A stretch of DNA of 64,000 bases from Bacteroides intestinalis (lineage in GTDB: Bacteria > Bacteroidota > Bacteroidia > Bacteroidales > Bacteroidaceae): positions 1-64,000 of the forward strand of contig NZ_CABJDN010000010.1 in the NCBI RefSeq assembly GCF_902364365.1. The letters run 5' to 3'. This document shows, one piece after another, positions 8,743 to 59,374 of this stretch (positions are counted from its first letter, which is position 1; every line of letters starts with the position of its first letter). The notes below the pieces were generated by a model. That model was not told the origin of the DNA and did no database searches. It saw nothing but the letters and a program-made list of their open reading frames with translations. A program made the translations under genes and the position numbers.

Positions 8743-8759
8743 TACTTCTGGGTGATGTG

Positions 8760-8767
8760 CAAAAGTA
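8760..8767 (-). promoter_or_regulatory. Bacteroides -7 box before the glycosidase operon
   Basis: Reading the minus strand, TACTTTTG fits the Bacteroides TAnnTTTG -7 consensus and ends 18 bases before the GH89 start codon. No clear -33 TTG is seen at 19-21 bases, which is common for activator-dependent promoters. The 113-bp gap to the regulator gene is the only likely control region of the operon. Confidence 0.5.
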
Positions 8768-8855
8768 AGCGTTTATTTTTTTATATAAGGAGAAAATAGA
8801 AAAGTTTGGGACGAATATAGTAAAGAATGAGACAGAAATATAAAGTGAGGAGTCT

Positions 8856-13028: not shown

Positions 13029-13037
13029 ATGAATTCA

Positions 13038-13110
13038 AGTTACGAGTTACAAGCTACGAACTACAAGTGGCTGCGCAATGCTCGTCACTCGTAACTTGTA
13101 GCTCGTAGCT
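13038..13110. repeat. Intergenic hairpin repeat, copy A
   Basis: An imperfect palindrome lying between the HTCS and acyl-CoA synthetase genes. Bases 13052-13068 pair with 13094-13110 at 16 of 17 positions, and the left arm continues outward with related TTACGAGTTACAAG sequence. A second copy with the same arm words (agttacgag, gctacaag, ctcgtaac) and a shared ggctgcgc loop word in opposite orientation is at 35144-35229. This marks a dispersed, REP-like element. Its right arm overlaps the last bases of the synthetase gene. Confidence 0.75.
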
Positions 13111-43680: not shown

Positions 43681-43754
43681 GGACTTGTAGCTCAGTTGGT
43701 TAGAGCAACAGACTCATAATCTGGAGGTCCCTGGTTCAAGCCCAGGCTGGTCCA
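43681..43754 (+). tRNA. tRNA-Met (anticodon CAT), integration site
   Basis: A 74-base cloverleaf: acceptor ggacttg with ctggtcc (one T-T mismatch at position 6 and one G-T pair), D-arm gctc/gagc, anticodon loop ctcataa with CAT, and T-arm cctgg/ccagg with loop ttcaagc. No CCA is encoded. The 3' 40 bases (43713-43752) are repeated at the window end, which identifies this gene as the attachment site; integration leaves the tRNA intact. CAT could also mark an Ile2 tRNA read after lysidine modification, which sequence alone does not exclude. Confidence 0.93.
43713..43752 (+). repeat. attL core repeat
   Basis: The 40 bases from ctcataatct to gctggtc, covering the anticodon loop to the acceptor 3' strand, are identical to 63961-64000. 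The bases before differ (acaga versus atcgtt), which fixes the left limit of the identity. Confidence 0.95.
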
Positions 43755-43765
43755 CTTTCAAAATC

Positions 43766-44356: not shown

Positions 44357-45859
44357 ATGAATGCAATGGAAAAATTGACAAAGTCTTTGCCCCTTTTCAA
44401 AGAGCGAAACTGTTCTGTCTCTATCGTGTTGGATTCGCGTACCCGCAGAAAGAATGCGTGTGAGTTTCCTTTATCTCTTCGTTTCACGATTGACCGCAAG
44501 TTCTTCTACTTTACAGTTGGAAGTTCTTTTACTGAGAAAAAGTTCTCGGACATCTGCAATGCGACGAAATGTAAAAGCGAGAACTACAAATTTCAGAAGG
44601 AGTGGAAAGATACCATTGCCCCCAAGTACAAAGAAATCTTGATGAACCTGAACAAAGGCGGCATCCTGACATTTGAGATGGTACGTCAATGTATCATGGG
44701 TGAAGAAGTGGTACTATCCAAAGAGGACACAACCCAATCACAAACCTTTATTAGTATTTGGGAGCAAGTCATTCACGAATTGCGTACAGAAGATGGAGGA
44801 GCACGTTTCACCACGGCAGAGAGTTATGAGTGTTCGCTCAAATCATTCAGAAAGATTCTTGGAGAAAATGCAATCAAGGGCTTCTGCATCTGTGCGGCAG
44901 AACTTCAGAAGTGGAAGGATGGTATGCACAATGGAGTTAAAGACGAAAATGGTGCGATTGTCGGTAAAATCAGCGACACTACGGCCGGTATCTATTTGCG
45001 TTGTTGCCGTGCCGTATGGAATAGGTGCGTACATGAAGGCTACCTCAAAGATGTTCCCTATCCTTTTTCCAACAAAAAAGAGAAAGGGCTTGTGAGCATT
45101 CCCAAGAGTGCAAAGCGCAAACAGAATTTCCTGAACGTGAATCAGATGACGGAACTCTATAATCTTTTTGTTTCAAAGAAGTATCCTGAACATTGGTCGG
45201 AAGAATATACCCAACGTGCGCATTATTCATTGGGATTGTTTCTTGCTCAATACCTATGCAACGGTTTCAATATGGCTGATGCAGGGCGATTGACATACGA
45301 CAACTACTATTATCAGACAGGTGGCAAGGCATTCCGCTTCAACCGGAAGAAGACTTCCCGACGGAGTGCAGACGGCTCAGAGGTGATAGTCCCTATCATC
45401 CCTCCCTTACGATATATCTTGGATGAGATAGCTGCACCTCCGACTCGGGACGGTTTTGTGTTCCCCGATATATTAAAAGGAGCGGAAACGGAAGAGTTAC
45501 GCCGCAAATACACTATGCAAGAGAACTCAAACGTGAAAGACCGCGTCATTAAGATTTGCCATGAGGCATTGAATTGGGATAAGTCCATCTGTCCGTCCGG
45601 CACATGGTGCCGACACTCGTTTGCTACTAATCTGCATAATGCCGGAGTGGATATGGATTATATCTCTGAAAGCATGGGGCATTCAACTTCTGATCATGCC
45701 ATTACCCAAATCTACATTGAGCATTATCCTCTCGATATACAGATGCAGAACAATTCAAAACTGCTAAACTTGGAGACATCTTCCGAAAGAGATGTTCTAT
45801 TGGCGAAACTGGCAAGCATGTCCACAGAAGAATTGCTCAAACTGTTCAGACAACCTTAA
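44357..45859 (+). CDS. int: Tyrosine recombinase (integrase)
   Basis: A 500-residue site-specific recombinase of the Bacteroides tyrosine integrase type. An N-terminal arm-binding part (DSRTRRKNACEFPLSLRFTI) is followed by a SAM-like core-binding domain (about 130-235) and a catalytic domain: RKKTSRRS (Lys region), WCRHSFATNLHNAG (Arg II), GHSTSDHAITQIYIEHY (His and Tyr). The Arg I position, normally in an RGM-like motif, reads CNGFNMAD, with Asn at residue 302. It should integrate and excise the element at tRNA-Met, whose 3' end is 600 bp upstream. A 355-base leader precedes it, and the next gene follows by 6 nt. Confidence 0.93.
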   Translation: MNAMEKLTKSLPLFKERNCSVSIVLDSRTRRKNACEFPLSLRFTIDRKFFYFTVGSSFTEKKFSDICNATKCKSENYKFQKEWKDTIAPKYKEILMNLNKGGILTFEMVRQCIMGEEVVLSKEDTTQSQTFISIWEQVIHELRTEDGGARFTTAESYECSLKSFRKILGENAIKGFCICAAELQKWKDGMHNGVKDENGAIVGKISDTTAGIYLRCCRAVWNRCVHEGYLKDVPYPFSNKKEKGLVSIPKSAKRKQNFLNVNQMTELYNLFVSKKYPEHWSEEYTQRAHYSLGLFLAQYLCNGFNMADAGRLTYDNYYYQTGGKAFRFNRKKTSRRSADGSEVIVPIIPPLRYILDEIAAPPTRDGFVFPDILKGAETEELRRKYTMQENSNVKDRVIKICHEALNWDKSICPSGTWCRHSFATNLHNAGVDMDYISESMGHSTSDHAITQIYIEHYPLDIQMQNNSKLLNLETSSERDVLLAKLASMSTEELLKLFRQP

Positions 45860-45865
45860 TCCGTA

Positions 45866-47116
45866 ATGCTGATGATAAACTTCATAGAAAGGATAAAATC
45901 CTACTCCCCCAAAAAGGAAACGGCTGATATGGCTATGCGAGCATGGAAATCAGCCAACGAAGAAGTGTATGCCAACTTTTGTAAGCGTATCGATGCTGTG
46001 GCTAAAGGCGATATATCTGTTCTGATAGATATGTATCTGATGATGCGTGACTGCGTTCCACCCGAAGCCTTGATGATGTATAACTGGCTCTCTGATTTTG
46101 TGAACGGCAAGGATGTGTCAGACATTGCAAACCAACAATGGGCTGGTCAATATACCGAGACCATCGCCAGATGTATCATCAACAAGCGTTTGTGGATAGG
46201 CATCAATGTGAAAACAGGTACGGTTGAACTGCTTTCTTCTCCGAAATCAAGGCTGTTGATGGTGCATTCTGAAACACCCATTGAAATATGGAATCATCTG
46301 CCACAGGAGTTAAGGTCCTACTTGATTGGGCAATTAAATATGTTTATGAGAAACAGCAAAGGTTGTTATCTGTTGAGCAAACTGGAAAGGAAAATGGTTT
46401 ATCAGTTCCTGACCTATATCTCTCAAATTATTTTCCTCTCTTATGCGGTGTTCATTGGCGGGTTCATGGCTAATCTCTATGACCGTGTAATGGAAAAGAA
46501 AGAGGACTTGGCTTATTGCATGTATCATTTTGTAGTGTTTGACCATGGTCTGTCCCGTATGACAAAGTTGCTTAATCGTCTGCTGAACAGTGAAGAGGTT
46601 GATCATGGCGATATGCTTTTGGTAAAATCATGTGTTACCCTGCTTGTCAATGAAAGTATAGAGATGGGTACAGAAACCAAAGCAGACTGGGAAGATACCA
46701 TAGAAGGCTATACCCCGGAAATCTGGAAGGAAGTGATGTTCGCCTTACGCAAAGTAAAAGGCAGGCGAGGCAATAGAAAGGTGATACAATCATTGGATGA
46801 TATTCTTTTGGGCGACAAGGAACGTATCAAGCAGGGTATCCGTTTATTCCTTGAAGAGAATACCGAGGATATAAGCCTTGCCTATCTGTTGAAGTCATTG
46901 GTAAAGTCTGGCAAGATAAAAGCGTCCACAAGATACATGACATTCCACCGTGCCATCGAACAGTTCTCCCAACGGCATTATGGGCACGATATACCACAGA
47001 AGCGATACGGGGAAATCAAGGAACTTACTTTGAACTCACCCCAAAGAGGAAGCAGTTACACCAAAGCAAAACGAATAATAGACCGATGGACGGATTATTT
47101 TATCAGTAACGGGTAG
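45866..47116 (+). CDS. Integrase-linked protein of unknown function (DUF6043-like?)
   Basis: A 416-residue protein, mostly helical, with one clearly hydrophobic segment in the middle (FLTYISQIIFLSYAVFIGGF, about residues 178-197) that could be a membrane hairpin. The C-terminal third is basic and helical (WKEVMFALRKVKGRRGNRK). It begins 6 nt after the integrase stop, so it is co-transcribed. A similar gene follows the integrase in other Bacteroides mobilizable elements as far as I recall; the DUF name is from memory and weak. A role in excision or its control is inferred. Confidence 0.55.
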   Translation: MLMINFIERIKSYSPKKETADMAMRAWKSANEEVYANFCKRIDAVAKGDISVLIDMYLMMRDCVPPEALMMYNWLSDFVNGKDVSDIANQQWAGQYTETIARCIINKRLWIGINVKTGTVELLSSPKSRLLMVHSETPIEIWNHLPQELRSYLIGQLNMFMRNSKGCYLLSKLERKMVYQFLTYISQIIFLSYAVFIGGFMANLYDRVMEKKEDLAYCMYHFVVFDHGLSRMTKLLNRLLNSEEVDHGDMLLVKSCVTLLVNESIEMGTETKADWEDTIEGYTPEIWKEVMFALRKVKGRRGNRKVIQSLDDILLGDKERIKQGIRLFLEENTEDISLAYLLKSLVKSGKIKASTRYMTFHRAIEQFSQRHYGHDIPQKRYGEIKELTLNSPQRGSSYTKAKRIIDRWTDYFISNG

Positions 47117-47294
47117 TTGGGGAATCCAGCTATCCGTATTTATTTTGCAAACAACTGTTGTAATACGGTCGGTTAAATTAAGGTATAAATAAACCGACCA
47201 ACCCACAGAGTTTCATACACTACCTTCGCTTGTGAAATCGGTTTCACAGAGTTGAATCGAGGTTTAAAGTATTTAATCATCAACCAAGTAAAGG

Positions 47295-47612
47295 ATGGAA
47301 AAAAAACTCAATTTTACCCAACTACTCCAAAAACCCATCGCCATGATGACAGGCGAGGAGCTATGTTTTCTCATCACCAAAAGCGTGGAAAGTACAGGAG
47401 CGGCCACTCCCCAAGTGGCATCCAAAGGCAACTACTATGGCATAGAGGGTATCGCCCGTGTATTCGGTTGTAGCGTGCCCACCGCCAACCGCATTAAGAA
47501 AAGCGGTATCATAGACAAGGCTATCACACAGATAGGACGAAAAATCGTAGTGGATGCAGACCTCGCACTGTCTTTGGTAAAGGAAGCAGGTGGCATTCGT
47601 ATCAAAGAATAG
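47295..47612 (+). CDS. DUF3853-like helix-turn-helix protein
   Basis: A 105-residue protein. After a short N-terminal helix it contains YYGIEGIARVFGCSVPTANR, ending in GGIRIKE, a MerR/excisionase-like helix-turn-helix with a wing (AITQIGRKIVVDADLALSLV). Such DUF3853 proteins sit before the primase gene in Bacteroides mobilizable elements. It may act as an excisionase or as the regulator of the replication gene 4 nt downstream. It has its own 178-bp upstream gap. Confidence 0.78.
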   Translation: MEKKLNFTQLLQKPIAMMTGEELCFLITKSVESTGAATPQVASKGNYYGIEGIARVFGCSVPTANRIKKSGIIDKAITQIGRKIVVDADLALSLVKEAGGIRIKE

Positions 47613-47616
47613 GTGT

Positions 47617-49002
47617 ATGGAAGAGAATTGGAAAAAGAATCTGGCAACAGACAGTTACGGGAATCCGGTTCGTTCCATCAGTAATCTCCGGCTTATTTTC
47701 ACACTGGATGAGAATCTTAGTCAGATAAGGTACGATACCTTCTGTCAGGACGATGTGTGTTTCTGCCCTTTGTTCCGCAATGTCAATGGTAACAAAATTG
47801 ATGAAGAATCAGCAGGAAAGATACAAGACTACTTGGAAAGAACATACAGAATACGTTTGACGCAGAATAAGGTATTTGAGATACTGAAGACCACTTCTTC
47901 TGAACGGAGTTTCAATCCTGTACAGGAATTCATCGCACAAGAGACATGGGACGGACAACCTCGCATAGCCACAACCATCATAGATTATCTTGGAGCGGAT
48001 GACACTCTGCTTGTCAGGGAACAAACGAAAATATGGTTTGTGGCAGCTGTAACCAGAGTATTCAATCCAGGTTGCAAGTTTGACAACGTACTGACCTTGC
48101 CCGGTCCGCAAGGCATTGGAAAAAGTACCTTCTTCAAAGCCATCAGTGGGAGATGGTTCAACGATTCGTTCTCTTTCGCCAGTGGTGACAAGGAGAAAGT
48201 GGAAACCATAACCAACGGTTGGATTATTGAAATCAGTGAGTTGAACGGCTTGAAACGTGCGAATGACGCGGAAGCTGCCAAGGCTTTTCTAAGCCGATGC
48301 AGTGATTATATGCGTCCGGCTTACGGACACAAGGTTGTGGAGTTCATGCGGCATAATGTCTTTGCTGCGACTACTAATGAAATGAACTTTCTGCAAGGAG
48401 ACAATGGAAATCGCAGATGGTGGATTATCCCAGTCAAAGGCAACGGTCATGTGTCAGATTGGTTGGATGATTTGCAACGTTCCGTTCCTCAATTTTGGGC
48501 AGAGGCATATACCTATTATAAGCAAGGTATGAAATTATACTTGACTCCCGATATGGAGGTAGAGGCCAACGAGATACAGATGCAACATTCCAACATCATT
48601 GTTGACCCTATTATAGAGGACATAGAAATGTATCTGGAACGTGAGGTTCCCATGCAGTATGCAAGTTGGATGATTCCGACGCGACTAGCATATCAGAAAG
48701 GAGCATACTCAGAGCCAAATTCCACAATGACCTCACTCAATATGGTTTGTGCCCGGCAGATTATAGAGGAACTGCCCAATGATTTGGTCAGACGAAGTTC
48801 GTCCAAATACACTTCGCAATACATCAACCGCCTGATGTCCATGATTCCAAATTGGAAACGGAGCGAACAGGAGAAGGTCAAGGGGCTGCATCCAGCCTAC
48901 TGCGATAAGACGGGACGGACGAAATACCCATGGGTGAGGGTGGACGCTCCAAGTGAAGAGTCCTGCGCGACACTGCTAAGTGAACAGGAATTGCCATTCT
49001 AA
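47617..49002 (+). CDS. VirE/VapE-type primase-helicase ATPase
   Basis: A 461-residue protein of the virulence-associated E (VirE/VapE) family. It has a Walker A motif GPQGIGKSTFFKAISGRWF, Walker B-like GWIIEISELNGLK, and DNGNRRWWIIPV. These are superfamily-3-like helicase/primase ATPases that start replication of mobile elements and satellites; the comparable gene in NBU elements is a primase. The start is ATG 47617, 4 nt after the previous stop; an in-frame GTG at 47590 would overlap it. The N-terminal 90 residues lack a clear primase signature. Confidence 0.87.
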   Translation: MEENWKKNLATDSYGNPVRSISNLRLIFTLDENLSQIRYDTFCQDDVCFCPLFRNVNGNKIDEESAGKIQDYLERTYRIRLTQNKVFEILKTTSSERSFNPVQEFIAQETWDGQPRIATTIIDYLGADDTLLVREQTKIWFVAAVTRVFNPGCKFDNVLTLPGPQGIGKSTFFKAISGRWFNDSFSFASGDKEKVETITNGWIIEISELNGLKRANDAEAAKAFLSRCSDYMRPAYGHKVVEFMRHNVFAATTNEMNFLQGDNGNRRWWIIPVKGNGHVSDWLDDLQRSVPQFWAEAYTYYKQGMKLYLTPDMEVEANEIQMQHSNIIVDPIIEDIEMYLEREVPMQYASWMIPTRLAYQKGAYSEPNSTMTSLNMVCARQIIEELPNDLVRRSSSKYTSQYINRLMSMIPNWKRSEQEKVKGLHPAYCDKTGRTKYPWVRVDAPSEESCATLLSEQELPF

Positions 49003-49134
49003 TTTCAAAATAAGGGAAAAGAAAAAACTAATGTCCCCTTGTCCCTTTTGCCCTCAAAAAAGAACAAAAACAGGAAGTAAGTAAAATAGAAAGTTATAAG
49101 AACGCTTGGGACACGGGACAATATAAATCACAAT

Positions 49135-49488
49135 ATGAGAAAAGAAGAACTTATCAAACAGCTACAAGAACGTGACTCGCTGCTGGCAAATGCGGTCAGC
49201 CACATGGTTACGTATGTTCAAGACCGTTACCCTTACCCTTCCACCTTTCCAAGTAAGGAACAGACCGAAGCGGTGAACAATTACCTGCGAAGTGTCCATG
49301 CCGATGGAGACGGCGGTATATCAGAACGGAATTGTGAACATCAGCGTATCGCGTCACAGAACATTACCATTGCTGCCATTCGTGTATTGGATAGTTATCA
49401 ACTTGATAGGTTGCAAAACTTGCTTGACCACATTGCATACGACAAGGAGTATTATATGCCTGAAAGAGGTTGCGGTATGCACCGCTGA
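49135..49488 (+). CDS. Small element protein of unknown function
   Basis: A 117-residue soluble protein: an N-terminal helix (RKEELIKQLQERDSLLANAV), a PYPSTFPSKEQTEAVNNYL middle part and a C-terminal helical part (LDSYQLDRLQNLLDHIAYDK). No catalytic motif is evident and I do not recognise the family. Being between the primase and mobilization genes on the same strand, it probably belongs to the element maintenance or transfer operon. Confidence 0.5.
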   Translation: MRKEELIKQLQERDSLLANAVSHMVTYVQDRYPYPSTFPSKEQTEAVNNYLRSVHADGDGGISERNCEHQRIASQNITIAAIRVLDSYQLDRLQNLLDHIAYDKEYYMPERGCGMHR

Positions 49489-49539
49489 CTTTCTCTTTTG
49501 GCTGCACCATTTATAAACCATCTTCAAAACAAACAGACG

Positions 49540-50226
49540 ATGAAATCAAACTTGAATTATTGTATCGTACTTTCGTCAGAGCAACTTGCATATCTGGCTG
49601 GAAGCAAGTACGGTATTGACCGCATGAAGATTCTGCACCAACTTATTGAAGCAGCAGTATTGAAAGAAACCGACTATGCCATAAAAGGTTTTTCCACAAC
49701 CTTGCAAGTGGGGCAAGCCATCCTATCGGAAGTGGATTTGGCCTGCAAGTTAGGTTATGACAAGAAGACCATATCCCGTGTGCTTGACAAAATGAACCAG
49801 TTGGGAATTGTCGCATCCACACAGAGCAACCGAACAAGCGTTCACACCCTGAAATGTATATCGGCATGGATGTTGGATGGCAACGGAATAGACAATCCTT
49901 TCTATGTCCGAATAAAAGACCGGCAAGTAGAAGGAGAGGATGATTACGCACAATCCGATGATACTTTTCCTATTTTATCAATGACTCCGCAGGAGGATTC
50001 GGATAGCCGTATGGAGGAAAACTTACCCAACTCAAAAGATAACAAGCAAGTCGAAGCTATAACAGAAGATACTTTTTCTGATACTGATTTTTCCTTAGTA
50101 GGTAAATTGCCTGTTATATCAGACGAAGGAGAACAACATTCACCCTCTTCTTTCCCTCTTGTTTCGGTTTCTCCACAGCCTGTGGCAGAGGAAGAATCCG
50201 ATGAGGATATATTGGCAGACAGCTAG
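49540..50226 (+). CDS. Winged-helix protein, mobilization region
   Basis: A 228-residue protein with an N-terminal winged helix (GSKYGIDRMKILHQLIEAAV, VDLACKLGYDKKTISRVLDK with MNQLGIVAS) and an acidic, low-complexity C-terminal tail rich in E, D, S. Winged-helix proteins at this place in Bacteroides mobilizable elements may regulate or initiate replication. ATG 49540 was chosen over TTG 49498, which would add 14 residues reading from the previous gap. No nuclease motif is present. Confidence 0.55.
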   Translation: MKSNLNYCIVLSSEQLAYLAGSKYGIDRMKILHQLIEAAVLKETDYAIKGFSTTLQVGQAILSEVDLACKLGYDKKTISRVLDKMNQLGIVASTQSNRTSVHTLKCISAWMLDGNGIDNPFYVRIKDRQVEGEDDYAQSDDTFPILSMTPQEDSDSRMEENLPNSKDNKQVEAITEDTFSDTDFSLVGKLPVISDEGEQHSPSSFPLVSVSPQPVAEEESDEDILADS

Positions 50227-50229
50227 GCA

Positions 50230-50400
50230 TAGTCATATTGGATATGGCGGTGGAGCCTCTGTTTTTGTGTGGGATCTTGCAAGAAGTTCCTATGTCGCAC
50301 AAATCCGCTACGCTTATCCGTACTACATAGGCGTATTCCGGCAGTCGCAAGCTCTCACCATGCTGTCCCTTTTTAGATTGATTACTCATAATACAACAAC
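50230..50400 (+). other. Candidate oriT region
   Basis: A 170-bp gap immediately before mobC and the relaxase, the usual place of oriT. It contains an inverted repeat cctatgt (50289-50295) / acatagg (50325-50331) flanking a 29-base segment. The repeat is followed by gcgtattccggcagtcgcaa. The nick site cannot be identified from sequence alone. Confidence 0.4.
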
Positions 50401-50799
50401 ATGAAGAAGAAAAAGATTACCAACAAAGATGTTGATGAAGAAAACAACAAGAAAGTTACGAGGCGCACTTTACGACTTGAAGCCAGAGTAACGGAGCAGG
50501 AATACACCCAAGCGAAAGAACTTGCCAAAACTTGCGGTTTGTCCATGAGCAACTATGTGCGTCGCACAGCCTTGGGGCAACGCCCTCGGCAACGATTGTC
50601 CGAGCGTGAGGTAGAAGCCTTATGCAGTCTGACGGATGCAAGGGGCAACCTTATCCGTATTGCGGCAGCAGTAAAGTCCATTCAAGCGGATAAACGTGCA
50701 ATGTATTTCAGCGATACCCGGTTTGTGGAACAATGGATGAGAGCTGCTACGCAACTAATCAACCGCTGGAGCCAGATAGAGAATTATCTTACCGAATAA
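50401..50799 (+). CDS. mobC: MobC-like relaxosome protein
   Basis: A 132-residue ribbon-helix-helix protein: RRTLRLEARVTEQEYTQAKE then CGLSMSNYVRRTALGQRPRQ, followed by the MobC domain LCSLTDARGNLIRIAAAVKS. It binds oriT and helps the relaxase open the strand. It starts right after the candidate oriT, and the relaxase begins 15 nt after its stop. Basic N-terminus (MKKKKITNKDVDEENNKK) fits DNA binding. Confidence 0.87.
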   Translation: MKKKKITNKDVDEENNKKVTRRTLRLEARVTEQEYTQAKELAKTCGLSMSNYVRRTALGQRPRQRLSEREVEALCSLTDARGNLIRIAAAVKSIQADKRAMYFSDTRFVEQWMRAATQLINRWSQIENYLTE

Positions 50800-50814
50800 A
50801 TTTCCTTACCCGTT

Positions 50815-52026
50815 ATGATAGCAAAAGCCAGTACCATACCGCATGGCGCAAATGCCATAAGATATTCCGTCAATAAAGACAGAGCGGATATAGTCAAAGC
50901 CAACCTGTTGCCCGTTGATATTTCACCAGAAGCAATGTACGGTCGGATGATGCTCGTGCAGAAGATGTTTGCCGAGAAAATCAACAAGGGCAGACCTCTT
51001 GGCAGAAACGTGATAAGAATTGAAATTTCCCCATCCGAGAAAGAGAGTCGAAACTGGACGATGGACGACTGGGTACGTTTGGCAGATGAGTTTATCCGGG
51101 TATTCGATTCCATAGACCTTTCCGAAAAGACCCAACGGGCTTCCTCAAAGCAAACCAATCTCAAAGGTTCGCAATACATAGCTGCCCTGCATCGTGATTC
51201 TAAAAGTGGCATTCTTCACCTGCACATTGATGCCAACCGTGTGGATATGAATGGAAAAATAAATGATAGCCATAAGATTGGTGAGAGGGCAGTCATGGCT
51301 GCGAATATCATTAACGAAAGCCGAGGATGGGTACAGTCCAAAGAAATCGGCATACGGCACAGGCAGGAAATCTCAAACTGTTGCATGGAGATACTTCGTG
51401 CGATGGACAAATTCAGTTGGCGACAATACAAAATGGAACTGACAAAACGGGGTTACAAAATACACATACAAGAAAATGATAAGGGAAAAGTTTATGGTTA
51501 TTCCATCAAACGGGGTAACTCAAATTATAAGTCATCCGTATTGGGTATCGGGCGAAATCTGACTCCATCAAAGATAGAAGCTACTTGGGCAAAACTGCAT
51601 CCGCAGGAAAGGAAGTCGGAGCCGACAAATTCTATTCTCCAACAAACACGGACAGCCAACGCTGATTCTGTTATACAACCCAGGACGACTCCACAGTCTG
51701 CCGTAAAGCACTACGATATAGCGACAGACGAATATCACAACTACCATGTGGAGATACCCGAAGCAGCTGACAATATCATCAGGCAGGAGTGTTCTTTGGA
51801 GGAAGCTCATCCGTTGGCTAAGATTGAAGAGATACAACACACGGCTCTATTACTCTTTGCTGGGTATTTGGATGCAGCCACAAGCATAGCTGCTTCAAGT
51901 GGCGGTGGCGGTTCTGACACAGGAGGCTGGGGACGAGACAAGGACGAGGATAAACTTGAATGGGCACACCGCTGCGCAAGAATGGCAAATCGTATGTGCA
52001 AACGCAGGAGAGGACTTCACAGATAA
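50815..52026 (+). CDS. mobA: Relaxase/mobilization nuclease (MobA/VirD2-like)
   Basis: A 403-residue relaxase. The N-terminus IAKASTIPHGANAIRYSVNK places a candidate catalytic tyrosine at residue 17, and the metal-binding histidine motif is ILHLHIDANRVD (near residue 134, HxH). It nicks oriT and leads single-strand transfer into a recipient with help from another element's conjugation apparatus. The C-terminal part is low in complexity (ASSGGGGSDTGG). It overlaps no neighbour; the next gene starts 25 nt downstream. Confidence 0.88.
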   Translation: MIAKASTIPHGANAIRYSVNKDRADIVKANLLPVDISPEAMYGRMMLVQKMFAEKINKGRPLGRNVIRIEISPSEKESRNWTMDDWVRLADEFIRVFDSIDLSEKTQRASSKQTNLKGSQYIAALHRDSKSGILHLHIDANRVDMNGKINDSHKIGERAVMAANIINESRGWVQSKEIGIRHRQEISNCCMEILRAMDKFSWRQYKMELTKRGYKIHIQENDKGKVYGYSIKRGNSNYKSSVLGIGRNLTPSKIEATWAKLHPQERKSEPTNSILQQTRTANADSVIQPRTTPQSAVKHYDIATDEYHNYHVEIPEAADNIIRQECSLEEAHPLAKIEEIQHTALLLFAGYLDAATSIAASSGGGGSDTGGWGRDKDEDKLEWAHRCARMANRMCKRRRGLHR

Positions 52027-52051
52027 TTCACCTTTTATAAATATTAAGAAC

Positions 52052-52594
52052 ATGGGCATAGGAAGATCAAGGGGCACTTCGCCTATAAATGTCAATGACA
52101 TGTTGGAGAACGTCGAAATGAGCCAACAAATTGAGGCTGAAAAATCAGAAGTAGATAAACTTCTCGTAGAAATCAGAGAGGCAAAAGAAACACTGATAAA
52201 GTTCAATGAGGATTTGGAGAAAGCTATCGATGCCGAATGTCACATTGAGGGTGCGCTCAAAGCGGCAGCTGGCAGTTGTGACAATATTGTCAACGGCATC
52301 TGCAATGCCATTGTGAAAGCAGAACGAGACACGAAATTTAAAACAACTATCCCCCCTGACCAACTTGCAAAGCTTAAGCAACTTATAGACCATTCTGTAG
52401 AAAGTTGGATTTCGGTATTGGCAAATCACCGTGCCGAACAATCAAAACTTATCACCGAACATGAATACAATATGCGCAAAATCCTCAAACGGAATGAGGG
52501 CGTTTGGTTTTCCGACTTCTGGATGAAAGTCTTGCTGATATTTTTGTTCGTTTATACGGTGGGATTGGGAGTAATTGTATGTTATGCCACATAA
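52052..52594 (+). CDS. Coiled-coil, membrane-anchored mobilization protein
   Basis: A 180-residue protein: long helical region (EMSQQIEAEKSEVDKLLVEI and onward, probable coiled coil) and a single C-terminal membrane helix (MKVLLIFLFVYTVGLGVIVC). It follows the relaxase and is the last gene on this strand of the mobilization module. Similar small membrane proteins in Bacteroides elements are named MobB or mobilization protein. The start is ATG 52052; an upstream GTG at 51899 in the same frame would overlap the relaxase by 128 nt. Function inferred from place. Confidence 0.65.
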   Translation: MGIGRSRGTSPINVNDMLENVEMSQQIEAEKSEVDKLLVEIREAKETLIKFNEDLEKAIDAECHIEGALKAAAGSCDNIVNGICNAIVKAERDTKFKTTIPPDQLAKLKQLIDHSVESWISVLANHRAEQSKLITEHEYNMRKILKRNEGVWFSDFWMKVLLIFLFVYTVGLGVIVCYAT

Positions 52595-52688: not shown

Positions 52689-52994
52689 TCAAATAAAAAA
52701 TTGGTTTATGATTTCTGTTTCCTTAGGGTGTATTGTTCCATCTGCTTCAGCCATCCCAACGAATAGAACCTTAGCTAGAATTTTATTCTCATCAGTCATT
52801 CCACTGATTATAAGTTTAGTTTGTATATCATCAATATTGGAGATGTCCTCTATATCATTGATTGTTATGGAAAAATCACTATATGTTTTATCCATGTATC
52901 TCTCCTCTTTTGGATGAATGATACCATCTGCTTTCATAATGTGTGAAAGAACTTTTATGATGGCGTATTTTTCTATTGTTGTGAAACTATTCAT
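52689..52994 (-). CDS. TerB-like small protein
   Basis: A 101-residue helical protein with two related segments: HIMKADGIIHPKEERYM (about 17-33) and GMAEADGTIHPKETEII (about 79-95). Each carries the D-G-x4-E pattern of TerB/DjlA N-terminal domains, which bind metal at the acidic positions. The start codon overlaps the stop of the preceding helicase gene (ATGA), so it is translated with it. TerB domains recur in phage- and stress-response islands, often next to helicases or nucleases. No other domain is present. Confidence 0.7.
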   Translation of the reverse strand: MNSFTTIEKYAIIKVLSHIMKADGIIHPKEERYMDKTYSDFSITINDIEDISNIDDIQTKLIISGMTDENKILAKVLFVGMAEADGTIHPKETEIINQFFI

Positions 52995-55639
52995 AATGTC
53001 TGATTGTAGAAGAAGTTGTGATAAGTATCATTACCAATGTTAATTATATACATGTTTTCCCTTGCACGAGTTATCGCCGTATATATCGCTTGTGGCGACA
53101 TTGGGCGAAATGTCGTATTATGCAAAACAATGTCATTCTCTAGAATAACTATAACGGAAGGAGATTCCCAGCCCTTGAAACTTTGTATGGTAGATATTTT
53201 CAAACAACGTTTGTCTGTCGTAAACAATTGCTTTCTTGTTCGTTCAAGAGCTTCAAAATCCCTATTAAATTTCCAATTGGCTGCCTTTTCATCAGTAACC
53301 TGATGTATTTGCTTTAACCGTTCAAGGGTTTCGTTTGAAATAAATGTTATTTCTGTTTGTTCGTTTGTTCTTTGTCGATAAAGAATGTCAATATTGCGAA
53401 GCAATTTTGTTGAAGAAGCAAGTACAGCAAAATCTCTTGCTTCGTTATTGTCATTGGAAATGATATTGATTATATTAGTTATTATGGATTCAATGGAATT
53501 GTTTTGTCTCAGATCAATATAAGTTACAATTTGGAAATTGAACGTATTTGATATGGTATTCTCCGCAACTATATCATCGGTAGGTAGATTTGCCATAAAT
53601 TGTGTTTGAAATGCAGTGGCAAGATTAGCAAGACGTGGATTAGTAAATCTTCGACTGGTTGTTAATTGTCTATTCCATTGTCCTCCAATAATACCTAAGC
53701 GGATGTCACCATTTGCATCTAAAGGTCGTTGATATACATTTTGTTTGGGATCCCCAAACACTACCAGTTCACCATTAGGCACCAAAAGGAAATTCTGCAT
53801 GATGATGCGAAGCCATTCCGTAGTATAGTCCTGAACCTCGTCAACAAAGATTGCAGAATACTTCTTATGACCTTTGGAATTTTCAAAGAAGGCTTCGTTT
53901 TGATATGAGCTAAATTCAACATGCAACTGACATTCTGCAGCACGTATTCTAAAGAATTGATGATAAGGATATACGTCTATTTTTTCCCAAGAGAAATCCT
54001 CCCGAATCTCGGAAAGCCTAAACTTCAGGTAATTGGCTAATGTAATGTTATATGTCAACACTAAGACATCACCTCCAGTACGCTTCATGGCATTTACTGC
54101 TCTAAAGGCAAGTACTTGAGTCTTTCCAGAACCAGCGACACCACTTATTTTCTGTTGTGTTATACTACTTCCCGATAGTCGCTTCTGTGCACCAATAGGT
54201 TGCATATCAATGCGTCCTTCCTGATATGAATGCCAAGATGGAGATATCATCCTAGCCAATTTCCTTCTTACAACATCGTCAAAAGCATTGTTGTTGTATA
54301 AGAAACCTATGGTAGTATACAAATTTTGTGATATATCTCTATTTTCAATAATCTCCTTACCGAAGATAAAGGTAAAATTAAAGACGTTATTCTGATATTC
54401 AAAGAATTTTTTTATTTCGTCAATAGAGTTTTCTGAGAACACAACCGCCTTTTTGATAAGACTAAAATTCCGATTATCTTCAATAGTACTCATCAAAAGT
54501 TCTTCTATACCATCCTTAATGCTCAATTGACATAGGTTTATAAGGTCAATAGGAGATTGATATAGTTGCCCATGTACATTTATTTCCTTTTTATCTTCTG
54601 ATAATGTACACTCATTAAGGTTCTCCTCGAATATGTTCAGTAGAAGAACCCCCTTATTAGGTCTAACGATAATAAAATCTACAGCCACTTCGTTTACTGC
54701 TGCATCAATATACATTATGTCATCCACAGACAAAATATTTTCGAGTCTCCATGCGACTCTTGCTTTTTGAGATGATAACACATGATTCTGTATCTGCAAA
54801 CGTAAATCATATTCATTATATATTGCCTCATGTCTTTCATCCACCAAAGCTAATTTGTTAAGGTCAATTGTTGCACCATTGTATTCAAAGCATCTTGTCA
54901 TGCATGTATAGGGATGTGCTGTTCTCCTTGTGCGTGCATAACGTACACTATTTATCTGGCTGAAATAATTCTGTTCTCCAAAAACAGAACAAAATTTCTC
55001 AATTCTATACGCCGCACCATTTTGGGGACCAATACATAGAACAAAGTGTTTCCCTTGCGCAGATGCCACCATCTTTGCAACTATTCCCAAATCGATAGCA
55101 GTTACATCCAAGATATTAGAAAAAACATGGATGATATTATTATATCTATATCCAATAGAATTAAGAGTCTCTCCTTCAACAATGTCGTTTGCTGGAAGAA
55201 AAAGATTCTTCACATCTATTTCAACTGTGCCGTGCGTAAGAGTTCGAATATTATCGTTGGCGCGTTCGATGGCACTATGAGAAGGCTCAATAAGCGTTAT
55301 TTTACGTAGCCATTGAAATAAATTACGCTGTCTTAATACTTCAATTATAGTAGCAGAGCCTATGCCTTGACCACATCCCCAATCAACTATCTCAATACTT
55401 CCCTGAATATCGTTAAATGGGAAATTCATCATTGCGGCACGACACTTGGTTACATGCATATCTCCATATGCAGACATATAACAATTTAGTGCCACATCAC
55501 TTGCTAATAGATTTATGCCATGATTCAACTCTGGATGTGTCCAAGGTCTTCCCTTATATTCTTCGGGCAAAGCATTGTGACAATAATCAATAATGTCATC
55601 AATACTATTACATTGTTTTATATCTTCTGCGTATGGCAT
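52991..55639 (-). CDS. Methyltransferase / NERD-like / UvrD-type helicase fusion
   Basis: An 882-residue multidomain protein. Residues 1-290 form a Rossmann methyltransferase-like domain with motif I IEIVDWGCGQGIGSAT near 81-96 and LIEPS after it. Residues about 310-440 resemble a degenerate NERD nuclease (EVAVDFIIVRPNKGVLLL). From about 490 a superfamily 1A helicase follows: GVAGSGKTQV (Walker A, near 500), IFVDEVQDY (Walker B, near 598), VFGDPKQNVYQR, TSRRFTNPRL, STIQSFKGWESPSV, YTAITRARENM (motif VI). It lies 2 nt after the DUF1848 gene and overlaps the TerB gene by 4 nt. I know of no characterised protein with this whole architecture. An anti-phage role is inference. Confidence 0.8.
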   Translation of the reverse strand: MPYAEDIKQCNSIDDIIDYCHNALPEEYKGRPWTHPELNHGINLLASDVALNCYMSAYGDMHVTKCRAAMMNFPFNDIQGSIEIVDWGCGQGIGSATIIEVLRQRNLFQWLRKITLIEPSHSAIERANDNIRTLTHGTVEIDVKNLFLPANDIVEGETLNSIGYRYNNIIHVFSNILDVTAIDLGIVAKMVASAQGKHFVLCIGPQNGAAYRIEKFCSVFGEQNYFSQINSVRYARTRRTAHPYTCMTRCFEYNGATIDLNKLALVDERHEAIYNEYDLRLQIQNHVLSSQKARVAWRLENILSVDDIMYIDAAVNEVAVDFIIVRPNKGVLLLNIFEENLNECTLSEDKKEINVHGQLYQSPIDLINLCQLSIKDGIEELLMSTIEDNRNFSLIKKAVVFSENSIDEIKKFFEYQNNVFNFTFIFGKEIIENRDISQNLYTTIGFLYNNNAFDDVVRRKLARMISPSWHSYQEGRIDMQPIGAQKRLSGSSITQQKISGVAGSGKTQVLAFRAVNAMKRTGGDVLVLTYNITLANYLKFRLSEIREDFSWEKIDVYPYHQFFRIRAAECQLHVEFSSYQNEAFFENSKGHKKYSAIFVDEVQDYTTEWLRIIMQNFLLVPNGELVVFGDPKQNVYQRPLDANGDIRLGIIGGQWNRQLTTSRRFTNPRLANLATAFQTQFMANLPTDDIVAENTISNTFNFQIVTYIDLRQNNSIESIITNIINIISNDNNEARDFAVLASSTKLLRNIDILYRQRTNEQTEITFISNETLERLKQIHQVTDEKAANWKFNRDFEALERTRKQLFTTDKRCLKISTIQSFKGWESPSVIVILENDIVLHNTTFRPMSPQAIYTAITRARENMYIINIGNDTYHNFFYNQTL

Positions 55640-55641
55640 AA

Positions 55642-56706
55642 TTATCTTCCTGCTATTGTTTCTGCAAATCTATTCTCTAGATGCTGTTTCCAATTTTGCA
55701 ATGCCAATTGTTTTGTGGTGTTAGCATAACAGTATTCGCAAAGATGCGGACAAGTGTTGTATTCACCAATGTCCTTAGAGGCCATGCATTCGCAGAATGG
55801 TCGCTGCCCCTGGTCTTTCTTGTGCTTACTGATGAAGTAATGGTTATGAGGCAGAAGTATTGCTCCTTGGGGCAATTGGGACTCGCCAAAAAGCGTTGGC
55901 GCAGGAACTTTCTCTATCTTTACTTTCATGAAGTCCATCAGTTCCTCGTCGTCCCAAGCCAAACGAGTGATAAGGTCTCCATCTATGCAGCGATTATGCT
56001 GAATGCCATATTTTGAGATGTCAATCTTCTCACCACAAGTAGCAAGTTGGAAGTTCCAACTGCGTTCACGATTCATAGTAGATAGCTTGTCAGCAAACTC
56101 TTCCATTTGCCCTGTATCCCACTCATGGTATGATATACCACTTACTTCAAGATTATGTTTCACCTTCCTGTACATAATAATATCCGCATAGCTGAATACC
56201 AACTTTTCTGTGTAATCTTTTAGTTGGTCACCAATATTCTGAACTTTCCATAGCAAGTCATCCACAGATATGTCATCTGTCAGCATCATGGGGTCAAACC
56301 GCCAAATAACAGCCCCCTTACCAAGTTGCTCAACAAGTAACTTGAATGTTTCTATGCGTTTAGCAAGAGAAGGTACTTTCTCTAATTTCTCCTGTTCGTA
56401 ATCATTCAGGGTATATTGAACATAGCACTTAATGTTACGCTCTTTGAGGATATGCAGATATGGCAACAATGGTAGTGGATTCTTTGACCAAAATACAATG
56501 AAGCGAGTTTTCTCATACGAGACATACGACTTTACGCCATTGAACGGATTCGTCCATGCTGAATACCCTTTCTGTAAACGATGGAAAAACCAATCAGCAT
56601 AGAATGCCGGAATGTCGGTACTCCTACTTGCAGAAATAATGAGGGGAGTCTGCGCTTTTACAGGTAATCCATTAATAATAATGTCTGTACATTGCCACGT
56701 TGCCAT
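55642..56706 (-). CDS. DUF1848 protein with C-terminal radical-SAM-like Cys motif
   Basis: A 354-residue protein. The N-terminal part (IISASRSTDIPAFYADWFFH, FWSKNPLPLLPYLHILKERN, LVFSYADIIMYRKVKHNL) has a TIM-barrel-like pattern shared with the DUF1848 family. Near the C-terminus the cysteines are C305, C307, C319, C323 and C326; CPHLCEYC gives C-x3-C-x2-C, the spacing of a radical SAM [4Fe-4S] site, but at the end of the chain instead of the beginning. This suggests a circular permutation or an accessory cluster. It is first of the trio, 2 nt before the helicase fusion. Its reaction is unknown. Confidence 0.75.
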   Translation of the reverse strand: MATWQCTDIIINGLPVKAQTPLIISASRSTDIPAFYADWFFHRLQKGYSAWTNPFNGVKSYVSYEKTRFIVFWSKNPLPLLPYLHILKERNIKCYVQYTLNDYEQEKLEKVPSLAKRIETFKLLVEQLGKGAVIWRFDPMMLTDDISVDDLLWKVQNIGDQLKDYTEKLVFSYADIIMYRKVKHNLEVSGISYHEWDTGQMEEFADKLSTMNRERSWNFQLATCGEKIDISKYGIQHNRCIDGDLITRLAWDDEELMDFMKVKIEKVPAPTLFGESQLPQGAILLPHNHYFISKHKKDQGQRPFCECMASKDIGEYNTCPHLCEYCYANTTKQLALQNWKQHLENRFAETIAGR

Positions 56707-56805: not shown

Positions 56806-57435
56806 TCACTCTTCAAATGGATACGTTTCGTCATAGACTTCACTTAGAAGACGGTCGTTGAAAAGCCAGTGTGGTGTGGGCTGTATATGTTTGACCTTGT
56901 AGCCTTTTAGCTTAGCAGAAAGTGCACTAATAGAAGTTTCTTCTCCTTGATAACACACTTTGCGCTCTGAACGAATGGTGACAGAAATTGACGGATCATC
57001 TTTCCAGATGAGAATATCACCTTTCTGCAATCCCATCTCGTAGAAATTGAGCGGTGGACGTTTTGCTTGTGCTTTTGTGCTGGCAGCTTTATCCTCATCA
57101 GTGAGGTCGTTCTGTATCTCATCTGTCACTTCTTCCGTCACATCTTCATGATGGAAAAGTTCGAGGATGGCTTGTGCCTGATCCACGTTGATACGGAAGA
57201 ACTCACGATTCTGATTGATGCGCTGAGGTTCAAAGGCTTTATGAAGGGCTTTCTCAATTTTGAGACAATCACTTTTCTTGACCTTGCACGCAAATTTACA
57301 CTCAAACGGAACGGGAACTCCTGTGGTATATAGTTCCTTCATCCGTTTATCAATGTCTTCCTGTGTGGTCATGCCTATTTTTACCAGTCCTGGCATCACA
57401 GGGTTTGTCAGAAGATAAACTATTCCGTATTCCAT
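56806..57435 (-). CDS. GIY-YIG nuclease-like protein with C-terminal RAMA/DUF4357-like part
   Basis: A 209-residue protein. The N-terminal T5orf172-type GIY-YIG domain shows GIVYLL (4-9), LVKIGMTTQ (17-25), DKRMKELYTTG with the catalytic Arg and REFFRI near the catalytic Glu. After a polar linker (about 100-128), the C-terminus GLQKGDILIWKDDP to HWLFNDRLLSEVYDE resembles the RAMA/DUF4357 fold found with restriction-modification proteins. It would nick or cut DNA; substrate is unknown. It lies between the AlbA_2 gene (104 nt upstream) and the DUF1848 trio (99 nt downstream) on the same strand. Confidence 0.78.
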   Translation of the reverse strand: MEYGIVYLLTNPVMPGLVKIGMTTQEDIDKRMKELYTTGVPVPFECKFACKVKKSDCLKIEKALHKAFEPQRINQNREFFRINVDQAQAILELFHHEDVTEEVTDEIQNDLTDEDKAASTKAQAKRPPLNFYEMGLQKGDILIWKDDPSISVTIRSERKVCYQGEETSISALSAKLKGYKVKHIQPTPHWLFNDRLLSEVYDETYPFEE

Positions 57436-57539: not shown

Positions 57540-59153
57540 TCATTTTTTACTCCTCCTATATTTTTGATTGCTTGCATTGGGATGCTCGGGATTGGTCATT
57601 TCAAGATAACCTGCCTCTACAAGTGACATTATATATGTTTGTCTATTCTTGCTATGATTCGTTACTCCTATTCTATCAAGAATTTCCTTGCTGCTGCGTG
57701 GCACACTACAGAAGTTTACAATGTCCTTTTGCTTATTTGTTATTTTAGGATGCTTGGTGTCTAAGTAAGCATTGAGAGTGTCAGAGTTAGTGTCTAAGTC
57801 TGTGTCAGAGTGTCCAAGTCCAGTGTCAGGGTTGGTGTCCAAGTGTCTAAGTTTGGTGTCTAAGTTGCCATTAACTTGGTTACTTTTATTGCTAGCTTGG
57901 TTACTTTTCTCGTTGACTTGGTTACCTACTGGCCTATTTATAGTAATCACAAACTCATTCGTCCTATCGTTGTTGATGAACGAAACATTCATATCCTCTG
58001 ACAATGCACGAAGCATACCACTACCCGCTCCTGTGTAGGGAAGCAAATGAATGGCATTTGTGAAAAGGAACGTATTGCGCGGCATGGAGGTTCCCACAAC
58101 GATATCATCTATAGTAAGTCCATTGGGGAGAGTTCCAGGGCTGTGTATCTCCACCCTGTCATCAAAGATGAAGATGCGGATTGGGGCTGTCACATTCAGC
58201 GAGCGATGCACTAAAGCATTTACAATGAACTCAACAAGACTGGTGTAGGGTATCTCCAACACTCCTTGCGAATTAAACTCTCTTCCTACTTGTATGTGAC
58301 GCAAGTTTCGGGTGAAGAAATCCATAATAGTCTCAAACTGATGAAGCAGATTGCCCTCAATGTCGGCATCATTCACTTTATCACGAAATTGTGAACCTCC
58401 AAGACTATTGCCCACAAAGCAAATACACTTTGCTGTCATTACTGGAAGCCAACGCTGAGTGTACCTTCCAAACAATAACATTGCAGCCACTGTGATTTTC
58501 CCATCGGGTCGGATGAAACGTAGATTACGCAACAGCTTCTCTCCATCGTGACCACTTGCAATAGCGGAGCAGACAGTATCTAAAGAGGCCTCGCGTAAAG
58601 CATCGCCCACCAGCCCTTTTCTCACTAATACTTTTTCAAACTTGTTACTTAGGAAGGTTTTGATGGTATTCTCGTCCAAATCCTTAATGGTGGCGTCACG
58701 GACTCCTGCTTCATCAGGCGAGAAACTGCCGCAATCTGTCATCATTTCGGCAAGCTCGGCATTATCGAACACTTTGCGCTTGTCGGCACCATTCTTCACC
58801 CACACAATGCCACGATTGTCATGGTAAGGTTTATTCACCCCTTCTTTAATATGAGCCACAACAAGGCTTCCGTCATCCACAGAAATAGTTTCTACATCAA
58901 CAAGGATGGCAGGAACAACATTCTCAGATGCGATGTTACCAAGTGTATTCGTCGTTTCCTGTACTTCCAGATACGACAAAGGATTGACGCTGCCAGTTTT
59001 GTCCTTCACGCCAACGACTAGTGTTCCACCACGTGCATTGCTGAATGCCACCAATTCGCAGCCGATGTCGTAGCTGTCAAGGAGCCGTTCTTTGAACTGC
59101 ACCTTACTGACTTCACCTGACTTTATCTGTTGAATAATATCTATTTCCTTCAT
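57540..59153 (-). CDS. AlbA_2/ATPase regulator with repeat linker
   Basis: A 537-residue protein. AlbA_2 (divergent AAA-4, Schlafen-like) domain at 8-135: SKVQFKERLLDSYDIGCELV, NARGGTLVVGVKD. It is followed by the usual C-terminal ATPase part (FIVNALVHRSLNVTAPIRIF, DDRVEIHSPGTLPNGLT). Then a low-complexity linker (NQVNEKSNQ, LDTN units, about 410-465) leads to a winged-helix end (KDIVNFCSVPRSSKEILDRI). It is coupled to the XRE gene by a 4-nt overlap. Some such proteins act in anti-phage or toxin-regulator contexts; here it is inferred only. Confidence 0.85.
   Translation of the reverse strand: MKEIDIIQQIKSGEVSKVQFKERLLDSYDIGCELVAFSNARGGTLVVGVKDKTGSVNPLSYLEVQETTNTLGNIASENVVPAILVDVETISVDDGSLVVAHIKEGVNKPYHDNRGIVWVKNGADKRKVFDNAELAEMMTDCGSFSPDEAGVRDATIKDLDENTIKTFLSNKFEKVLVRKGLVGDALREASLDTVCSAIASGHDGEKLLRNLRFIRPDGKITVAAMLLFGRYTQRWLPVMTAKCICFVGNSLGGSQFRDKVNDADIEGNLLHQFETIMDFFTRNLRHIQVGREFNSQGVLEIPYTSLVEFIVNALVHRSLNVTAPIRIFIFDDRVEIHSPGTLPNGLTIDDIVVGTSMPRNTFLFTNAIHLLPYTGAGSGMLRALSEDMNVSFINNDRTNEFVITINRPVGNQVNEKSNQASNKSNQVNGNLDTKLRHLDTNPDTGLGHSDTDLDTNSDTLNAYLDTKHPKITNKQKDIVNFCSVPRSSKEILDRIGVTNHSKNRQTYIMSLVEAGYLEMTNPEHPNASNQKYRRSKK
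57757..57865 (-). repeat. Degenerate LDT repeat inside the AlbA_2 gene
   Basis: The word gtgtctaag and variants (gtgtcagag, gtgtccaag) occur about nine times in 109 bases, encoding LDT-, SDT- and PDT-type units in the linker of the AlbA_2 protein. The repeats are degenerate at the third codon position, so slippage could change the unit number. Confidence 0.75.
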
Positions 59154-59374
59154 TTCTTCAAATGTTTTTGGTTGAGCAGTCTACCTGCATCAATATTCAA
59201 AGCCTCTGCTATACGTAGGAGGTTTCTTGCGTCAGGCTGCATGGTATTCGTCACCCATTTGGAGACAGTAGCTCGGTCTTTTCCTAATTGTTCTGCCAGC
59301 CACTTACTGCTTTTTTGTTCTTCGGCAAGCACTATCTTCAGCCTGTTAATCATTTCTTTTTCCATAAAAGACAT
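59150..59374 (-). CDS. XRE-type regulator paired with AlbA_2
   Basis: A 74-residue Cro/C1 helix-turn-helix protein: LKIVLAEEQKSSKWLAEQLG then KDRATVSKWVTNTMQPDARN and LLRIAEALNIDAGRLL. It overlaps the next gene by 4 nt. XRE plus AlbA_2 is a common two-gene unit in Bacteroides, the small protein probably repressing the pair. The second Met (residue 4) is an alternative start. Confidence 0.82.
   Translation of the reverse strand: MSFMEKEMINRLKIVLAEEQKSSKWLAEQLGKDRATVSKWVTNTMQPDARNLLRIAEALNIDAGRLLNQKHLKK

Follow-up and report, generated by a model that had tools for sequence, protein, structure and literature searches.

Comparison with described systems

DISARM, ARMADA, and Dpd combine a large helicase with methyltransferase or modification functions, and GajB of the Gabija system is a UvrD helicase. 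Shango and other TerB systems have a small protein of the TerB family encoded close to a helicase. Dionysus is a TerB-containing system covered in a review (PMC12926258). Here, we analyzed a locus in a 64,000-nt stretch of Bacteroides intestinalis DNA (contig NZ_CABJDN010000010.1, positions 1–64,000), referred to as the window, in which three genes encode a DUF1848 protein, a fusion of a methyltransferase (MT) domain, a degenerate NERD-like domain, and a superfamily 1 (SF1) helicase, and a TerB protein. This trio represents one version of a modular family that is conserved and whose linkage goes beyond chance. We tentatively regard it as the anaerobic SF1-helicase form of a mobile defense family that may chemically edit nucleic acid, a reading that we hold as possible rather than probable.

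Eight window genes located at 51.9–63.7 kb were scanned with PADLOC-DB 2.0.0 (2023). As a preliminary description of this DNA had stated, no named system fitted the trio: no model or system name joins the three genes, and the matched models share no system name. The DUF1848 protein matched the reverse transcriptase-associated DUF1848 model (RTasDUF1848, DRT; 6.2e-37), the fusion matched the NERD+UvrD model C3a187 over residues 285–865 (2.4e-34), and no match was obtained for the TerB protein of the trio. These two models represent the same protein families as those of the trio but are listed under different names and not together. DRT was rejected because the eight genes contained no reverse transcriptase match. 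GajB gave a short match to residues 591–637 of the fusion (7.2e-10); Gabija was rejected because no GajA (OLD-type nuclease) was detected among the eight genes; the fusion and its partners also differ. Shango was rejected because none of the SngA, SngB, and SngC models matched these genes; a weak SngC match (0.001) was found in L075, a relative with a superfamily 2 (SF2) helicase (relatives are denoted by L numbers). The trio family resembles BREX in that forms composed of AlkB, MT-SF2, and coiled-coil genes are located inside BREX-type operons (L075, L076, and L079), and membership of the trio itself in BREX was rejected because no PglZ, BrxC, or other BREX model matched the eight genes.

Three SF2 helicases of the family were scanned and matched the PADLOC DpdF models, the best being a partial match of 1.7e-74 (L066). 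The helicases of the trio family are UvrD-like or RecQ/DpdF-like, in contrast to the YprA-family helicases that appear with PglX-like methyltransferases in the accessible part of PMC12458937, where radical SAM (S-adenosylmethionine) has no occurrence. A literature word search, covering mostly papers available without subscription, found no mention of DUF1848, no mention of C3a187, and no paper combining BREX, AlkB, and "defense island". The human repair complex AlkBH3-ASCC3, which to our knowledge has no methyltransferase or radical-SAM part and which, unlike the trio, is eukaryotic, is similar in pairing an AlkB enzyme with a strand-supplying helicase. In that complex, ASCC3 supplies single-stranded DNA to AlkBH3, according to PMC7608686.

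Organization of the trio and linkage in its relatives

The trio has the following features.

55642–56706, minus strand: DUF1848 gene, 354 aa (open reading frame (ORF) and Pfam DUF1848, 1.2e-89)
55729..55752, minus strand: C-terminal CX3CX2C motif of DUF1848 (C319, C323, C326), invariant in 39/39 aligned sequences
52991–55639, minus strand: MT–degenerate NERD-like–SF1 (UvrD/Schlafen-like) helicase fusion gene, 882 aa
54875..55639, minus strand: MT domain, putative class I, aa 1–255 of the fusion, with DWGCGQG, EPS, and HxFSNxLD motifs
54320..54787, minus strand: NERD/PD-(D/E)XK-like domain without ExK, aa 285–440 (PADLOC C3a187 NERD+UvrD)
52991..54208, minus strand: SF1 helicase domain, aa 478–882, with Walker A, Walker B, and motif VI intact
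52689–52994, minus strand: TerB gene, 101 aa (Pfam PF05099, 4.9e-8)

The ORF map agreed with the three-gene operon proposed in the preliminary description at 52689..56706, with all genes on the minus strand, a spacing of +2 nt between DUF1848 and the fusion (55640–55641), and an overlap of the fusion with TerB (−4 nt; 52991–52994). The Pfam matches likewise bore out the TerB-like partner and, together with the cysteine motif, the suggestion of a possible radical-SAM-like DUF1848 protein. In seven computable gene comparisons of the trio with L008, L013, and L033, dN/dS was 0.06–0.35.

The 882-aa fusion had 1206 homologs at E ≤ 0.001, and the best 120 of these were 99–100% identical to it, one of them being given with 1000 contigs. 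Sources among the listed homologs were Phocaeicola dorei, Bacteroides uniformis, B. caccae, B. thetaiotaomicron, and Paraprevotella xylaniphila. The occurrence of 99–100% identical fusions in several genera indicates recent spread between genera. L001, a diverged relative on a fecal contig filed as phage, had a fusion and a DUF1848 that were 40% and 55% identical, respectively, and the 350 nt that follow the cassette showed no TerB gene.

Genome contigs were scanned with an alignment of 22 relatives. Because the scan patterns (EI[VI]DWGCG and H[VI]FSNILD) were taken from the MT domain only, the locus set was unselected for DUF1848, helicase type, or TerB. The best 80 of 128 loci made up the MT-selected set, and 84 loci were mapped with near-copies kept, namely, the window, L001, and L006–L087, including the viral contigs L086 and L087. 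The MT domain was carried by an SF1 helicase in 45 of the mapped loci, by an SF2 helicase in 34, and by other proteins in five. Upstream linkage was counted where a locus had 1.2 kb or more of upstream sequence, and downstream linkage where it had 500 nt or more of downstream sequence; the 80 loci with ≥1.2 kb upstream comprised 78 found via the MT domain alone, the window, and L001. Removal of near-copies left 65 loci at 90% MT identity and 53 at 80%.

Among the SF1-type loci, 43/44 had DUF1848 at most 5 kb away on the same strand (at most 500 nt away in 40), 35/41 had TerB no more than 200 nt downstream, and 0/41 had a coiled-coil gene. The SF2 type had DUF1848 in 23/32, the coiled-coil gene in 29/32, and TerB in 0/32. 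Without near-copies (MT <90% identical), DUF1848, TerB, and the coiled-coil gene were found in 31/31, 23/29, and 0/29 of the SF1-type loci and in 20/29, 0/29, and 26/29 of the SF2-type loci, respectively. TerB is a replaceable part of the family, and the coiled-coil gene stands in its place in the SF2 form. This small gene gave weak PADLOC matches to coiled-coil parts of other families, and its product is predicted, as read from its sequence, to be a coiled coil with a hydrophobic C-terminus.

When DUF1848 was sought within 5 kb and AlkB within 1.5 kb, 65 of the 80 loci had DUF1848 alone, nine had AlkB alone, four had both, and two (L042 and L052) had neither. DUF1848 and/or AlkB were present in 78/80 loci, and in 62/63 and 50/51 loci after removal of near-copies at 90% and 80% MT identity, respectively. 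L042 and L061 share the same upstream gene families, which are ferredoxin/hydrogenase-like by sequence; the SF1-TerB form in L042 and the SF2-coiled-coil form in L061 follow these families, which suggests replacement at one chromosomal site.

Other genes were observed beside the cassette. A trypsin-like protease gene adjoined it in L001 (Pfam Trypsin_2, 6.2e-8) and, by phmmer, in L029, L036, and L039. The SF2-type loci L048, L050, L051, and L052 had vWA and/or PP2C genes, which we take to be TerY-P-like, and L048 also had PglZ- and BrxL-cluster genes.

Viral contigs scanned with the window proteins alone yielded no relative, and scans with alignments yielded L086, L087, and L189–L194. The neighboring genes in L189, a viral contig, look phage-like. 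L190, also viral, contains an MT-less SF2 helicase gene with a coiled-coil-looking gene (7101–13053), and the preceding gene looks like a reverse transcriptase. Eight plasmid relatives from enterobacteria and Vibrio (H1–H8) were rejected as members of the family because they are of the NERD-UvrD type and match only from about residue 428; in the H1, H3, H7, and H8 regions, neither a DUF1848 nor an MT gene was annotated or found by search.

Exchange between DUF1848 and AlkB

An AlkB-type gene was linked in 13/80 loci, and the one scanned, in L075, matched PF13532 at 2.5e-33. Both enzymes were encoded in L024, L073, L077, and L082 in the order AlkB-DUF1848-MT, and L085 had an MT-only gene followed by AlkB. 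Eight of the nine SF2 loci without DUF1848 had AlkB (Fisher p 1.3e-4, with kinship ignored).

AlkB-type enzymes need O2. The AlkB-only SF2 loci came from Chryseobacterium, Algoriphagus, Flavobacterium, Saccharicrinis, Aequorivita, Robertkochia, Fluviicola, and Haloflavibacter, which, except for Saccharicrinis, we take to be aerobes; DUF1848-only loci came mainly from gut and rumen Bacteroidales. The six AlkB-only genomes tested had no DUF1848 and two PF13532 genes each, and the eight DUF1848-type genomes tested had no PF13532. DUF1848 was over the cut-off in 77/393 genomes in the order of L008 and in 1/395 in the order of L075. In the latter order, the SF2 type was observed in at least 3/395 genomes at E 1e-60, with at most two candidates scored per genome, and these were too few for the AlkB test to be enlarged from this order.

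The trees were quick ones with SH-aLRT support only. The DUF1848 tree, which carries a warning of long branches meeting, contained 105 of 111 copies after same-label near-copies were dropped. On it, the SF2 label needed 19 changes against a shuffled mean of 22.0, and well-supported branches force 13 of these; the SF1 label needed 26 against a shuffled mean of 31.2, with 16 forced. On the MT tree (99 domains), the SF1 and SF2 labels changed two and four times, respectively. The few label changes on the MT tree versus the many on the DUF1848 tree indicate that MT stays with its helicase and that DUF1848 is shared and exchanged.

Predicted functions of the encoded proteins

C224, C240, C305, and C307 of DUF1848 were as invariant in the 39 aligned sequences as the cysteines of the CX3CX2C motif. 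In a VIA-align comparison with the DUF1848 model, the best 22 rows were radical-SAM enzymes, some of which were assigned from their titles, and row 23 was not; these matches included SuiB, Elp3, RlmN, spore photoproduct lyase (SPL), and viperin. Foldseek with this model gave zero matches at E ≤ 0.001, and a sequence search of solved structures gave no usable match for DUF1848 or the MT domain. The fold of DUF1848 is predicted to be a radical-SAM-like barrel. Its cluster motif is located at the C-terminal end, whereas that of the radical-SAM superfamily is at the barrel start, on the N-terminal side. Since the motif is C-terminal and the stretches of SPL and SuiB to which the model aligns lie after the motifs of those enzymes, DUF1848 is predicted to be a circularly permuted radical-SAM enzyme, and it may use SAM chemistry.

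For the fusion, the preliminary assignment of methyltransferase, NERD-like, and UvrD parts was supported in all three, with the qualification that the NERD-like part looks nuclease-dead. The helicase matched Pfam UvrD-helicase (2.9e-10), and its motifs were intact. In the NERD-like part, position 335 was never E and position 337 was never K in 22/22 sequences, and it is from this absence of the catalytic ExK that loss of nuclease activity appears probable. The only Pfam methyltransferase match of the MT domain, 0.09, was below the cut-off. The motifs D86-W-G-C-G-Q and E118-P-S, corresponding to motif I and the acidic residue after strand 2, were near invariant across 99 domains, and by these the domain qualifies as a putative class I SAM methyltransferase. 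Its fold gave a structural match to a chain in 8csr, a mitoribosome assembly structure, and from this match and its motifs we take the domain to be Rsm22/METTL17-like. The Rsm22/METTL17 family has four cysteines for a [4Fe-4S] cluster, according to PMC12375894. Among the cysteines of the MT domain, C89 was present in 98/99 and C202 in 93/99, and C246 and C250 were not universal.

Mobile element and defense setting

The surroundings of the trio contain the following features.

56806–57435, minus strand: T5orf172 (GIY-YIG-like) gene (PADLOC candidate PDC-S57, 7.2e-81)
57540–59374, minus strand: Schlafen-AlbA_2 (RecG-C-like) gene and overlapping helix-turn-helix gene, in the same cargo block, upstream of T5orf172 and the trio
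44357..52594, plus strand: mobilizable element backbone with integrase, DUF6043, DUF3853, VapE-like, NikA-like, and MobA/VirD2-like relaxase genes
43681–43755: tRNA-Met

The trio had been described as lying on a mobile element, and the adjoining integrase, NikA-like, and relaxase genes confirm this; as a right border, no second copy of the tRNA-Met 3′ end was found in the window. The AlbA-T5orf172-trio block was also found in the close relatives L006, L007, L008, and L010, and the T5orf172 gene is a traveling companion of the trio in these relatives, outside the core. Beside the cargo block, 60029–63733 on the plus strand encodes a 1234-aa protein with a full-length match to phrog_18693 (1.2e-94) and no significant Pfam or PADLOC match.

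Relatives of the relaxase of the window element were located at eight places in 7/393 genomes, one of which was the trio-bearing L008. In the cargo place, L198 had DUF262-like genes matching HEC-06/Orf5, and L199 and L200 had type I restriction-modification (R-M) genes; the relaxases of L198–L200 were 48–81% identical to that of the window. No defense genes were recognized by eye in L203 and L204 (relaxases about 36% identical), and the cargo place was cut by contig ends in L201 and L202.

In L075, L076, and L079, a block of AlkB, MT, and coiled-coil genes was located between a PglX-like gene and PglZ/BrxL genes, with gaps of −8 to +7 nt inside the block and to PglZ; L076 and L079 had one or two extra genes between the block and the PglX-like gene. 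BrxC, PglZ, and BrxL of L075 were confirmed by PADLOC, and the other BREX labels were assigned from clustering and sequence. HsdR-like genes were found by cluster membership near L020, L024, L033, L083, L086, and L087, a raw count with no background rate, and one member, HsdR of L086, was matched by PADLOC.

Variant forms with DUF1848

DUF1848 was also observed in other arrangements. In L166, L178, and L182, it is near a 663–708-aa protein and a 357–362-aa SF1 helicase, with a different class I MTase-like gene nearby; the L178 protein of the 663–708-aa class had no Pfam match, and the MTase and helicase of L178 matched PADLOC C3a159 and C3a187. In L121, DUF1848 adjoins a 1645-aa NERD-AAA helicase. 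A split version (L124, L169, and L171) consists of DUF1848, an SF1-like gene of 355–388 aa, a 551–591-aa protein, which in L124 has Pfam 2CompART and 2CompARG domains, and a 504–517-aa MT protein. In a helicase-less form (L137, L174, and L175), the MT domain is on BspA-type leucine-rich repeat (LRR) and/or Sel1 repeat proteins beside or fused to DUF1848, and a single 898-aa ORF of L175 contains DUF1848, MT, and LRR repeats.

Discussion

If the trio is a nucleic acid-editing defense module, the helicase would open the target strand, the helicase-fused Rsm22-like MT would contact or methylate the exposed base, and the DUF1848 radical-SAM enzyme would then carry out a radical or oxidative step on this base, most likely the removal or conversion of a methyl or alkyl group on N or C. 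An AlkB dioxygenase would act in the role of DUF1848 in aerobic relatives. The accessory specific to the helicase type would be TerB in the SF1 form and the coiled-coil gene in the SF2 form. The module would likely serve to process nucleic acid that is modified or foreign, making it open to action by the cell or by neighboring R-M or BREX systems. More specifically, DUF1848 as an oxygen-independent AlkB counterpart and the helicase-borne MT might make up a writer/eraser-type module that strips or rewrites the base modifications of invaders and can be plugged into BREX or R-M loci, and the radical-SAM version would belong to anaerobes and the AlkB version to aerobes, with both present in some lineages; in this full form, the proposal seems doubtful to us.

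Several results weigh against the editing-module reading. The SF2 tree shows a single appearance of AlkB and three changes of DUF1848. The AlkB exchange is thus based on few independent events, and for a sign test of the swap between AlkB and DUF1848, significance was out of reach with the independent pairs. Among 71 DUF1848-centered loci in the order of L008, which are part of the 77-genome DUF1848 places and mostly the stronger matches, an MT domain was located within 7 kb in 13; 25 of the 71 had no DUF1848 copy at 1e-20 with the cassette profile and were counted as lacking an MT partner. Of 39 DUF1848 copies at least 50% identical to that of the window, 13 had MT, and six of the remaining 26 had <3 kb of contig downstream. 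Some of the loci lacking this MT, L121, L166, L178, and L182 among them, have SF1-like helicase genes beside DUF1848. The DUF1848 family is not bound to this system. The dependence is one-sided, in that the MT-helicase fusion almost never occurs without DUF1848 or AlkB. The preliminary description had named a finding of the trio homologs mostly apart as evidence against it; this does not apply to the fusion, with DUF1848 in all but one of the SF1 loci counted, and applies in part to DUF1848 itself.

A mobile cassette for nucleic acid repair, in which a helicase and a direct-reversal enzyme (AlkB or DUF1848) act on alkylated DNA or RNA as in ASCC3-AlkBH3, would explain why AlkB (PF13532) and DUF1848 share one slot, and it is consistent with SPL among the radical-SAM matches of DUF1848 and with the gene after DUF1848 in L048, which we take to be exonuclease III-like. 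An MT domain fused to a helicase would be unexpected for repair, and both the embedding in BREX operons and the swapping with R-M cargo within a single family of elements point to defense; we consider the repair cassette unlikely. Abortive infection, in which MT and DUF1848 would modify a host target (the ribosome, a tRNA, or a protein) and infection would be sensed by the helicase or repeat domains, draws on the resemblance of MT to the 8csr chain, on the MT-bearing LRR and Sel1 repeat proteins encoded next to DUF1848 or joined to it, and on the protein with ADP-ribosyltransferase and ADP-ribose glycohydrolase domains added in the split operon L124. Helicases are, however, the commonest MT partner (SF1 or SF2 in 79/84 MT-selected loci), and AlkB-type partners favor nucleic-acid bases as the substrate, leaving abortive infection improbable in our judgment.

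Restriction of foreign DNA by the NERD nuclease with self-protection by the MTase would be a classic nuclease/MTase pairing and fits the PADLOC NERD+UvrD match. We regard it as very unlikely because ExK was lost in 22/22 sequences and the conserved MT motifs lack the NPPY-type motif, which is that of DNA amino-MTases. Synthesis of a chain-terminating nucleotide by a viperin-like DUF1848, regulated by the other genes, is highly improbable: viperin ranked no higher than RlmN, Elp3, or SPL among the matches that suggest it, and neither replacement by AlkB nor coupling to MT would be expected.

The trio is absent from the 2023 PADLOC-DB, the defense catalog searched. If it is a defense system, it would be very common in gut Bacteroidota (Phocaeicola, Bacteroides, and Paraprevotella), with near-identical helicase proteins in up to 1000 contigs per protein cluster. 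DUF1848 is still listed in Pfam as of unknown function, and the present analysis provides a first functional frame for it. The family would connect modification chemistry with BREX and R-M loci, and it makes testable the question of whether an anaerobe reverses or converts base methylation without oxygen.

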